DNA of 64,000 nucleotides, from NCBI RefSeq assembly GCF_004766055.1, contig NZ_SPQR01000003.1, positions 1-64,000 of the forward strand. Direction: 5' to 3'. Under the pieces are notes generated by a model, which was not told the DNA's origin, did not search any database, and saw only the letters and a list, made by a program, of their open reading frames with translations. The position numbers were made by a program, and so were the translations under genes. Position 1 is the first letter of the stretch. Every line of letters begins with the position of its first letter. Positions 5,495-36,516 of the stretch are shown here, in pieces. Source of the stretch: Desulfosporosinus sp. Sb-LF (lineage in GTDB: Bacteria > Bacillota > Desulfitobacteriia > Desulfitobacteriales > Desulfitobacteriaceae).

Positions 5495-5511
5495 TTGCAA
5501 TTTATGTGCCA
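5495..5511 (-). promoter_or_regulatory. Sigma-54 (-24/-12) promoter for the CoA-transferase
   Basis: On the minus strand the sequence is TGGCAC-ATAAA-TTGCAA. It matches the RpoN consensus TGGCAC-N5-TTGCW at every conserved base and has the required spacing. It points toward the CoA-transferase gene that starts at 5242. Confidence 0.8.
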
Positions 5512-33017: not shown

Positions 33018-35099
33018 TTACTTAAGATCATATCGTCGCATTTTTTCATAGAGCCAGGAACGAGAAATCCCTAAGAGTCGGGCAACCTCCGATTTATTGC
33101 CGTTCATCTTGATCAAAGCCTTTTCCATTGTTTCGCGGTCCAAATGATCATGAGCATTCTCCAGGTTCCATCCCTTCGTCGATGATAACGCAACTTCCAT
33201 CTTATCCTCCCTAAGGTAAAAGGGCAAATCCTCCAGCTCTAGCATTTTCCCAGATGCAAAATTCACTGCCCGTTCAATCACATTTTTTAATTCTCGTACA
33301 TTCCCCGGCCAACTGTGATCGAAGAGGATCTTTTGCACTTCAATAGAAACGCCACTAATCTGTTTGCCAAAATCCAGATTAAGCCGTTCTAGAAAGACTT
33401 GAATGAGGGGTATAATGTCTTCCGATCGATCGCGCAGAGGGATAAGGTGTAAATTGATCACATTTAGACGGTAATAAAGGTCACTTCGGAATTCACCGTT
33501 CTCCACCTTTTGAATAAGTTCTTTGTTAGTGGCGGCAATGATTCGCACATCGACTTTTACAGACTCGTTACTCCCTACTGGCTCAAAACTCCTCTCCTCG
33601 ATCACTCTTAGGAGCTTACTCTGCAAATTCATGGACATATCTCCTATTTCATCCAGAAAAAGTGTTCCCTCATCTGCAACAGTAAATTTACCAGCTCTAC
33701 CTCCTTTTTGTGCACCAGTAAAGGCCCCGCTTGCATATCCAAAAAATTCCGATTCCAGAAGGTTTTCTGGAACTGCTGCGCAGTTAACCTTGATATAGGG
33801 ACCTTTTCGTCGAGGGCTCGCCTGATGAATAGCCTCCGCAAAAAGTTCTTTGCCCGTGCCACTCTCCCCCGTCAACATGATCGAAGAACTCCCCCGTGCG
33901 GCCATCTCAGCTTCTTGCTTTAAACGTCGCATATCTGGACTTACTGTAACTATCTGGTTGAAAGTGACCGCTATTCGGCTAGTTCCTACTTTTTCCTTGT
34001 AAAATTCATAGTCACTATCCATCTGAGCCAACCTTTCAGATACCTCTTTCGTCTCTTCCAATTTCTGATAAACGATCTTTTTCACCGCCCCGATAATCTT
34101 TCCCTTGCGCACGATAGGCAAGCGGGAAACGATGCAAACCCTACCGTTAATGACCTGAATTTCATTAGTTTCTGCCATTCCAGTCTTCAAGGTCCTAGGA
34201 AGGCGAGTGTCCTCGATTATCTGATCCACAGGCCGGTGCAGAAGCTCCTTCTCCCTTTTGCCAAATAACAGGCATGCTGCCTCATTGACGAGAGTAATTT
34301 TGCTCTGGTCGTCCACGACAAGGATCACTTCATAGGCATTGTTAATGACAGTTTGTAATGTCTCGTACAAACGTTTGGTAGCATCAAGCTCCAATGCTAC
34401 CTGGTGAAAATCAGTCAAAGCCTGAAAGACAATTACGGCTCCCTTCGTTTCTCCCACTGGATTGATATTACAGAGTACCGTCACCTGGTTTATTTGCATT
34501 TGCATTTGCACCCCAACCATATGCTGTGACCGTTTGAGTACTGCGTTTAAATCTATGGTTGGAAACACGCTTCCAAATAAGCATCCTATAATCGTCTTTT
34601 GCTTTAGATCGAGAATTTTCTCACCCGCAGGATTGATTTGCTGAATGCAGTTATTTCGATCCACAACAATGATTCCATTCGGCATAGCCTGATATACGGC
34701 GTTGAGTTCGACCGCTAATTGTTCCGCTTTGCGGAACAAAGCCATGATCATATCTTCCTTGGTAAAAAGTCCAAGCACTTTCCCAACTTTGTCTACTACC
34801 ACGCCCATTCCCACCGAGCACAGCCTCGCACGTTGTTCTACATCCCTGTAGTGGGTATCTATTTCCACTGTTACTACTTGGCGATTGATATGTCTCAGGA
34901 GTGGTTCTGACGCTTCAGCCCCAGCCAAAAATGCATCCAATACATTAACTTTGGTCAAGATTCCGATCAGAAAACCATCTTCATCCACCACAGGCAAGGC
35001 ATCCATTTTGGCCTGGCGTAAAAGTACTACTCCCTGGATAAGTTGATCTTCAGCGTGAAGAAAAGGAACATCCCTGGTCATCATTTCATTCATCAGCAT
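33018..35099 (-). CDS. Sigma-54-dependent activator with CBS, PAS, AAA+ and Fis domains
   Basis: This 693-residue enhancer-binding protein should open RpoN promoters. A CBS pair (about 5-115, with DALPVVDEDGFLIGILTK) could sense adenylate ligands. Two PAS domains follow (about 125-235 and 240-355). The AAA+ core has Walker A LTGESGTGKELFAE, the sigma-54 contact loop GAFTGA, and TLFLDEIGDMS. The Fis-type helix-turn-helix at the end reads NKSEVARLLGISRSWLYEKM. There is no receiver domain, so it is not a two-component regulator. GAGGTGAG precedes the ATG. A sigma-54 promoter lies 430 bases upstream, pointing away. The CBS-PAS layout recalls amino acid fermentation regulators such as PrdR. Confidence 0.9.
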   Translation of the reverse strand: MLMNEMMTRDVPFLHAEDQLIQGVVLLRQAKMDALPVVDEDGFLIGILTKVNVLDAFLAGAEASEPLLRHINRQVVTVEIDTHYRDVEQRARLCSVGMGVVVDKVGKVLGLFTKEDMIMALFRKAEQLAVELNAVYQAMPNGIIVVDRNNCIQQINPAGEKILDLKQKTIIGCLFGSVFPTIDLNAVLKRSQHMVGVQMQMQINQVTVLCNINPVGETKGAVIVFQALTDFHQVALELDATKRLYETLQTVINNAYEVILVVDDQSKITLVNEAACLLFGKREKELLHRPVDQIIEDTRLPRTLKTGMAETNEIQVINGRVCIVSRLPIVRKGKIIGAVKKIVYQKLEETKEVSERLAQMDSDYEFYKEKVGTSRIAVTFNQIVTVSPDMRRLKQEAEMAARGSSSIMLTGESGTGKELFAEAIHQASPRRKGPYIKVNCAAVPENLLESEFFGYASGAFTGAQKGGRAGKFTVADEGTLFLDEIGDMSMNLQSKLLRVIEERSFEPVGSNESVKVDVRIIAATNKELIQKVENGEFRSDLYYRLNVINLHLIPLRDRSEDIIPLIQVFLERLNLDFGKQISGVSIEVQKILFDHSWPGNVRELKNVIERAVNFASGKMLELEDLPFYLREDKMEVALSSTKGWNLENAHDHLDRETMEKALIKMNGNKSEVARLLGISRSWLYEKMRRYDLK

Positions 35100-35318
35100 C
35101 CAAGCTCACCTCACCCTCGTACTGTTAATACAAATGATAATTTTTCTGCGCTCCCCTTCAACAAAGGGCTCCTCTGGTATTATTCTCTCCATACACTTCT
35201 AATTCCTTTCACTTTCAAACTATTCATAATAGAAAGATACTTAGGTCTTTTAATTACAAAAGCGCTAAGTATCTTTGACAAACTATTTCAGTATAATTAG
35301 AGTTTTAGTGTTTGTTAT

Positions 35319-35336
35319 TGTCCTGAATGACGGACA
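35319..35336. promoter_or_regulatory. Candidate UAS for the divergent sigma-54 promoter
   Basis: TGTCC (35319-35323) and GGACA (35332-35336) form an inverted repeat with an 8-base gap. A further GGACA follows near 35351. It is about 190 bases upstream of the -24 box, a normal enhancer distance. Confidence 0.35.
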
Positions 35337-35526: not shown

Positions 35527-35543
35527 TGGCACAACTATTGCAA
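35527..35543 (+). promoter_or_regulatory. Sigma-54 (-24/-12) promoter
   Basis: TGGCAC-AACTA-TTGCAA matches the RpoN consensus at every conserved base and has the correct spacing. It points rightward, away from the activator gene and into the gap before livF. Confidence 0.8.
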
Positions 35544-35552
35544 TATTCTGAA

Positions 35553-35709
35553 TATGATTTCACCTTTTAACGCATGTCCACCTTCAACGAATCACGTGTA
35601 TTGCCCAAACATTCAAGAGCATTTATTCTTGTATATTGAATTTCCTAGGCAGAGTTCAATATACCTCCTCATATTTTCACCTATTGTAACTACAATAGGT
35701 GATTTTTTT
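35553..35709 (+). ncRNA. Candidate sigma-54-dependent small RNA
   Basis: Counting 12 bases from the -12 element puts the start near 35553. An intrinsic terminator ends the transcript near 35709, giving about 157 nt. It contains a 10-bp hairpin (35631-35640 with 35655-35664) with a 14-base loop. An unpaired CCTCCTC (35664-35670) follows, which could bind Shine-Dalgarno sequences, and then the terminator hairpin. No ORF with a ribosome binding site fits; an ATG frame from 35554 runs through the terminator into antisense livF. This is inference from promoter and terminator placement. Confidence 0.6.
35678..35709 (+). terminator. Plus-strand terminator of the candidate small RNA
   Basis: CACCTATTGT (35678-35687) pairs with ACAATAGGTG (35692-35701), with an AACT loop, and is followed by A and seven T. 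The minus-strand side has no T-run, so it is directional. Confidence 0.8.
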
Positions 35710-35725
35710 ACGGCTAGGCACTGTG

Positions 35726-35756
35726 AAAAAACCCCCTTGCATAAACGCAGGGGGGC
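35726..35756 (-). terminator. Terminator of the liv operon
   Basis: On the minus strand a 9-bp GC-rich stem (35732-35740 with 35747-35755) is followed by TTTTTT, 23 bases after the livF stop. Confidence 0.85.
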
Positions 35757-35778
35757 AAATACTCATTGTCTAAAAAAG

Positions 35779-36516
35779 CTATTCTCCGAGATAGGATTTT
35801 CGGATCGCTTCATTTTGAGCTAATTCTTGTGCGAGTCCTTCCAGAACGATTGCCCCAGTCTCTAAGACATAGGCTCGGTTGGAAATTTCCAAGGCTAAAT
35901 GAGCATTCTGCTCTACCAGTAGAATCGTCGTTCCAGACACATTAATATCTTCAATGATGTGAAAGATCTCCTCCACGAGCATCGGAGCCAAGCCCATGCT
36001 AGGTTCATCCAGAATAAGAAGGTCAGGGCGAGCCATTAAAGCCCTCCCCATGGCCAACATTTGCTGTTCCCCACCAGACAAGGTCCCTGCCATCTGCTTG
36101 ATTCTCTCCTTCAGTCTGGGAAAATGATGGAACACTCGATCGAAGTCCTCCTGGCCTAGTTTGCCCTTTCGGATATGCGCTCCCATTAGAAGGTTCTCAT
36201 AAACAGACATCTCAGGAAACACATGGCGCCCCTCTGGTACATGGGATAAACCCATCTCGACAATTTTGTGTGGGAGCATGCCTTCGAATTTTTTGCTCCC
36301 CGCTTGGATACCGTGAATATATTTATCTTTAAACGTTACCTTACTATCTTTGTTGGACGGTTTTAAAAGCCCTGAAATTGTACGAAGGGTGGTGCTTTTT
36401 CCTGCTCCATTTGCACCGATTAAGGCGACGATCTCCCCTGTCTTCACTTCCAAGGAAATCCCGTGCAAGGCCTTAATTGAGCCATAGCTTACATCGACAT
36501 TTTCTAACTTCAACAT
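35779..36516 (-). CDS. livF: Branched-chain amino acid ABC transporter ATP-binding protein LivF
   Basis: This is one of two cytoplasmic ATPases that power branched-chain amino acid uptake. The 245 residues show Walker [15 protein letters not shown], a Q-loop-like SHVPEGRHVFPEMSV typical of LivF, signature TLSGGEQQMLAMGRAL and Walker B LLILDEPSMGLAP. The H-loop region reads ILLVEQNAHLAL. AAGGAG precedes the ATG. It is the last gene of a five-gene operon and is followed by a strong terminator. Confidence 0.93.
   Translation of the reverse strand: MLKLENVDVSYGSIKALHGISLEVKTGEIVALIGANGAGKSTTLRTISGLLKPSNKDSKVTFKDKYIHGIQAGSKKFEGMLPHKIVEMGLSHVPEGRHVFPEMSVYENLLMGAHIRKGKLGQEDFDRVFHHFPRLKERIKQMAGTLSGGEQQMLAMGRALMARPDLLILDEPSMGLAPMLVEEIFHIIEDINVSGTTILLVEQNAHLALEISNRAYVLETGAIVLEGLAQELAQNEAIRKSYLGE

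Follow-up and report, generated by a model that had tools for sequence, protein, structure and literature searches.

Does the sigma-54 promoter between an activator gene and the liv operon of Desulfosporosinus sp. Sb-LF drive a small RNA, and if so, of what kind? The question is raised by a 64,000-nucleotide stretch of contig NZ_SPQR01000003.1 (hereafter, the window), in which a -24/-12 promoter of exact consensus (TGGCACAACTATTGCA, 35527-35542, + strand) has an expected start near 35553. Proteobacteria have small RNAs driven by sigma-54, among them GlnZ and NrsZ (PMC9731577).

The genome encodes RpoN (PF04963 match), and the exact pattern TGGCACN5TTGCW was detected 18 times in its 4.27 Mb, as compared with 2 times for the reversed pattern. 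Of the 17 sites besides the one studied here, 15 are intergenic and precede a gene start by 26-260 nt (at two of these, the distance was read by eye from the sequence), and 2 are inside genes. Because 15 of 17 precede genes, an exact site predicts a real promoter well in this genome, and the consensus RpoN promoter proposed in the initial annotation (TGGCAC-N5-TTGCAA) probably works as one. Most of the genes behind the 15 intergenic sites have catabolic or redox functions; of all 18 sites, only the one studied here is intergenic without having a protein gene behind it. The window has a second exact site (5496-5511, - strand), with a CoA-transferase-like gene ~250 nt downstream of it. Elsewhere in the genome, the sigma-54 promoter at G000:C3:193300-194900 precedes a thiolase-like fragment, apparently truncated or decayed, which is followed by a 3-hydroxyacyl-CoA dehydrogenase-like gene.

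The divergent upstream gene (33018-35099, - strand) does encode a sigma-54 activator, as had been claimed: Pfam models matched CBS, PAS, AAA+ (Sigma54_activat, PF00158) and Fis-type HTH domains in this enhancer-binding protein of 693 aa. A C. difficile survey places 23 of 30 sigma-54 promoters next to the gene of an activator (PMC7438776), which makes it reasonable to pair the window promoter with its neighbor, and the divergent activator probably serves it. An inverted repeat, TGTCC-N8-GGACA (35319-35336), ~190 bp upstream of the promoter, is a possible activator site, judged from sequence only. Another inverted repeat between the activator gene and the promoter (35233-35276) is imperfect and terminator-like, with 19-nt arms that are 89% complementary and a 6-nt spacer. 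Orthologues of the activator (69-80% identical) are present in most genomes of the genus with other neighbors (CoA-transferase, thiolase or other genes), and no promoter-hairpin unit was found beside them in these relatives.

From the promoter and the terminator downstream, we infer a non-coding transcript of 157 nt (35553-35709, + strand). Its predicted fold has a minimum free energy of -32.4 kcal/mol (z = -4.1; none of the shuffles was as low). Within it lies a hairpin (35631-35664, + strand) with a 13-bp stem, of which 10 pairs are perfect and 3 more (two of them G-U) extend it, and with the loop CCTAGGCA (35644-35651; loop bases, CCUAGGCA). A CU-rich tail (TATACCTCCTCA, 35660-35671, + strand) overlaps the stem end, and the first bases of its CTCCTC are single-stranded in the predicted fold. 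The terminator scan identified an intrinsic terminator at 35677-35709 (+ strand; 11-bp stem, AACT loop, T7). The directional unit of hairpin, tail and terminator described in the initial annotation is thus all present. The convergent liv operon has a terminator-like repeat of its own at ~35724-35756 (- strand), which was recognized by its sequence and is absent from the consensus terminator scan.

The gap was also said to hold no credible ORF, and this stood up. The ORFs across it (e.g., 35554-35823) have no Shine-Dalgarno sequence and cross both terminators, and other copies of the element do not preserve the frame that crosses the hairpin. A protein-coding reading of that frame (ILNFLGRVQY...) was considered, as it seemed repeated in some copies, and was rejected, the frame being stopped or its start missing elsewhere. 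Bare 10-bp stems are common in the window (31 in 64 kb), and it is the conservation of the hairpin that exceeds chance.

A DNA search of 61 genomes matched the hairpin segment in relatives from the genus and the family and, as separate hits, short stretches that resemble the promoter; the whole promoter-hairpin-terminator unit was not found in any relative. Covariance models (R1, then R2 built from 15 copies; their E-values are rough) located 16 instances of the element, spread over 11 of 46 Desulfitobacteriaceae genomes; 37 further genomes from the class had none. The carriers include Desulfosporosinus strains, Paradesulfitobacterium ferrireducens and Acididesulfobacillus acetoxydans. The window copy has the highest score of all, and it is the sole copy of the hairpin in its own genome. 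No match was found among the viral contigs of IMG/VR that would point to a viral or mobile origin.

The consensus of the element is a 13-bp stem with the loop CCUWGGCA and a tail near UAUACCUYCUC, usually followed by a terminator. The loop is nearly invariant, outlier copies excepted, and it is the loop, not the tail, that is most strongly conserved. The tail is nevertheless UAUACCUYCUC-like in most copies, even where it is shifted out of the stem pairing (G032, G027), and in most other copies it is followed by a terminator-like hairpin with an unrelated stem sequence. Neither the window nor its relatives had a match in Rfam at the gathering score; a weak PyrR-like match (21.8 bits, cut-off 54) was taken as chance. 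No earlier description of the hairpin element was found in the literature, and to our knowledge, and in the libraries searched, it appears to be an undescribed RNA element of Desulfitobacteriaceae.

Three stem pairs show compensatory changes (A-U/G-C; G-C/A-U; A-U/G-C/G-U). Double changes were counted in 13 cells of the alignment as compared with 3.4 in shuffles. Of the stem cells, 92% are paired; sliding the partner left no more than 46% paired. Among 14 copies aligned by hand without gaps, 38 cells are G-U and only 2 are A-C, which fixes + as the transcribed strand, the one chosen in the initial annotation. The covariance model likewise scored the window hairpin at 63.6 bits on the + strand and 15.3 bits on the - strand. 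These sequence patterns show that the conserved hairpin is an RNA read on the + strand.

The genes beside the element in relatives are, by their annotation, typical of nickel/cobalt uptake. They encode CbiM (PF01891/PDGLE), FecB-type binding proteins in operons with FmdE (PF02663), CGGC proteins (PF08821), CsoR/RcnR-type repressors (PF02583), and a SAM methyltransferase in operons with SBP_bac_5. By our own count, 13 of the 15 copies outside the window have such a context, and only those in G023 and G067 do not. The element sits in leaders, upstream of a same-strand gene, in G033, G062, G001a, G032 and G027; it is located 3' of CbiM-type genes in G001b, G002 and G021; and it is free-standing, with no same-strand gene behind it, in G067 and the window. 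In four cases (the window, G067, G001b and G002) it is followed by a terminator and by no close same-strand gene, and in these it is not a leader. The window has no metal gene near the element, and the genes downstream, those of the liv operon, are convergent.

The link to sigma-54 was not shared by the other copies: no TGGCA[CT]N5TTGC site was found in the ten neighborhoods examined. Judged from a single genome for each species, the link appears specific to the source species. Of the conservation expected for promoter, hairpin and terminator, that of the hairpin and the terminator was borne out, and that of the promoter and the locus was not.

In relatives, a second motif, GRCCATGRAGGTYTG...CTTYRTGGYC-T(n), is often present 70-200 nt upstream of the element; it was not found in the window. 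In its full form (GRCCATGRAGGTYTGACY...hairpin...CTTYRTGGYC-T(n)), the motif spans ~42 nt with two stems and a T tract, as at G000:C5:66423-66464. Leaders of CbiM, FmdE, CooT-like, CGGC, CsoR-type, SBP_bac_5 and methyltransferase genes carry it at their 5' end (loci L080, L126; L040-L049, L081-L099, L127-L139). The pattern occurs in 40 of the 46 family genomes, with copies far above the reversed control. Seven genomes from other families of the phylum have it as well, in front of FmdE and other genes. It had no match in Rfam and could be an unrecognized metal-linked attenuator or riboswitch. In G007 and G023, the leader ahead of the element is another conserved one, GGATGGACCCAAAAAAGC...GCTTTTTTGGGTTTT, which is also terminator-like (L042 6250-6460 and 8800-9027; L043 5950-6142); the G007 copies had no match in Rfam. 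A pseudoknot between the tail and GGAGGU of the second motif looked plausible by eye at several loci and was rejected, as it is mismatched in G027 and would need a motif that is missing from the window.

With confidence a little short of even, we tentatively favor a free-standing, sigma-54-driven small RNA in which the conserved module is the part that does the work, with a protein or an mRNA as its partner. The divergent enhancer-binding protein would probably act at the promoter to give the ~157-nt transcript, the 3' part of which would be one copy of the module (the hairpin with loop CCUWGGCA, the CU-rich tail and the terminator). The module is likely a self-contained functional RNA, because it is found in leaders, at 3' ends and free-standing beside nickel/cobalt-type genes. 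It would have been brought under sigma-54 control in the source species, and it would probably act in trans, via a protein or mRNA that recognizes the nearly invariant loop and the pyrimidine tail. Several points weigh against a small RNA. No sigma-54 promoter was found in the ten neighborhoods of other copies and the loci of the activator orthologues are without the unit, so promoter and module are perhaps neighbors by accident; at least half of the copies are upstream of a gene, as a cis element would be; and no target was found when the genome was searched with the tail complement. A decoy that competes with cis copies in the same genome is unlikely, since the window hairpin is the only copy there.

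The positions of the copies upstream of genes could also mean that the element acts in cis in nickel/cobalt-type operons, as a transcription attenuator or part of the leader. The window copy would then be an orphan with little function here, its gene having been lost or not having moved with it, a possibility that we regard as unlikely but take seriously. About half of the copies do sit in leaders, 70-200 nt 3' of the second motif, and the leader copies precede FecB-type, methyltransferase or CGGC genes. A terminator comes after most copies, and the window, with neither a metal gene nearby nor the second motif, fits an orphan. This account is hard to reconcile with the free-standing and 3'-end copies in three other genomes. 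In addition, stem, loop, tail and terminator of the window copy are intact, with the top score of all copies, which is unlike decay.

The promoter, rather than the hairpin, could be the remnant. It would then be the relic of a deleted metabolic operon, with the RNA a short transcript running to the next terminator, and this we find doubtful. Among the window ORFs, no gene remnant was seen between promoter and hairpin, and what follows the promoter is a conserved RNA element, not random sequence. Still, every other intergenic exact site in the genome precedes protein genes, as do similar promoters in G019 and G027, and the different genes that relatives keep beside the activator indicate that its locus was rearranged. 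A vestigial element behind an orphaned promoter is possible.

The mode of action suggested in the initial annotation, that of an antisense-type small RNA whose CCUCCUC pairs with Shine-Dalgarno sequences and blocks translation, fared less well, and we consider it improbable. Its structural part was retained: the start of the tail is accessible in the predicted fold, and the tail is pyrimidine-rich in most copies and so complementary to G-rich ribosome binding sites. A generic Shine-Dalgarno sequence, however, pairs with any CU-rich tract, and the specific complement of the tail (the 11-mer GAGGAGGTATA) was not enriched, with 71 sites of at most one mismatch in the organism's own genome versus 97 for the reversed control. 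Two exact sites were found off the locus; by eye, one (C1) is closely before an ATG, whereas the other (C11) has no start codon at ribosome-binding distance. That conservation is strongest in the loop, not the tail, also argues against such pairing. Finally, a DNA operator of a metal regulator, to which the nickel/cobalt-type gene contexts and a palindrome (TATTGA-N16-TCAATA) whose geometry we take to resemble NikR sites would be suited, is largely excluded, because the departures from the palindrome follow a strand-specific wobble pattern (G-U on one strand, almost never A-C; 15 bits on the minus strand vs 64 on the plus) and the spacer, which would be free in a NikR-type operator, is the best conserved part.

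The favored small RNA can be compared with known systems. Qrr, GlmY and CrcZ are further sigma-54-dependent small RNAs of Proteobacteria with the same layout. RsaE/RoxS are C-rich small RNAs of Firmicutes and, like the window RNA, have a pyrimidine-rich single strand next to a hairpin; the window RNA differs in having no Rfam match, in a conserved core that is the hairpin loop, and in a tail complement that is not enriched. Rli55 and EutX are riboswitch-controlled regulatory RNAs and, like them, the module can follow a leader attenuator and can end in its own terminator, whereas the window has no known riboswitch (Rfam) and no ANTAR-type dual hairpin was seen in it. The likeness to GlnZ and NrsZ consists in a short non-coding RNA made from or under a -24/-12 promoter, with an enhancer-binding protein as activator and an intrinsic terminator at the end (PMC9731577), and a Qrr-type RNA shares this arrangement of promoter, activator and terminator in the available text on it (PMC10162802). 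In contrast to the sigma-54 small RNAs of Proteobacteria, to which no sequence similarity was found, the window RNA belongs to a Gram-positive anaerobe, and its module occurs more widely than the sigma-54 promoter in front of it.

For a Gram-positive organism, an RNA driven by sigma-54 would be unusual, because the C. difficile promoter map, in its available text, names no SigL-driven non-coding RNA; most non-coding RNAs are there assigned to SigA and a few to SigD, SigB and sporulation factors (PMC7438776). The accessible part of a regulon reconstruction in Clostridiales also names no sigma-54-driven small RNA (PMC6615313).

More speculatively, the element may represent a new family of regulatory RNAs in Desulfitobacteriaceae, in which the hairpin with the loop CCUWGGCA is recognized by a partner from the nickel/cobalt uptake network, with use both in cis, downstream of a leader motif linked to metals, and in trans, as a free RNA, and with sigma-54 control in this species. 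We regard this as rather unlikely in its full form; if true, sigma-54 control of the module would couple sigma-54-dependent metabolism to metal supply. The more durable point is the conserved element itself, which is in no RNA library searched and has clear covariation and ties to nickel/cobalt-type genes. Its conservation, covariation and gene contexts in relatives make it a concrete, testable candidate for a regulator in this family.
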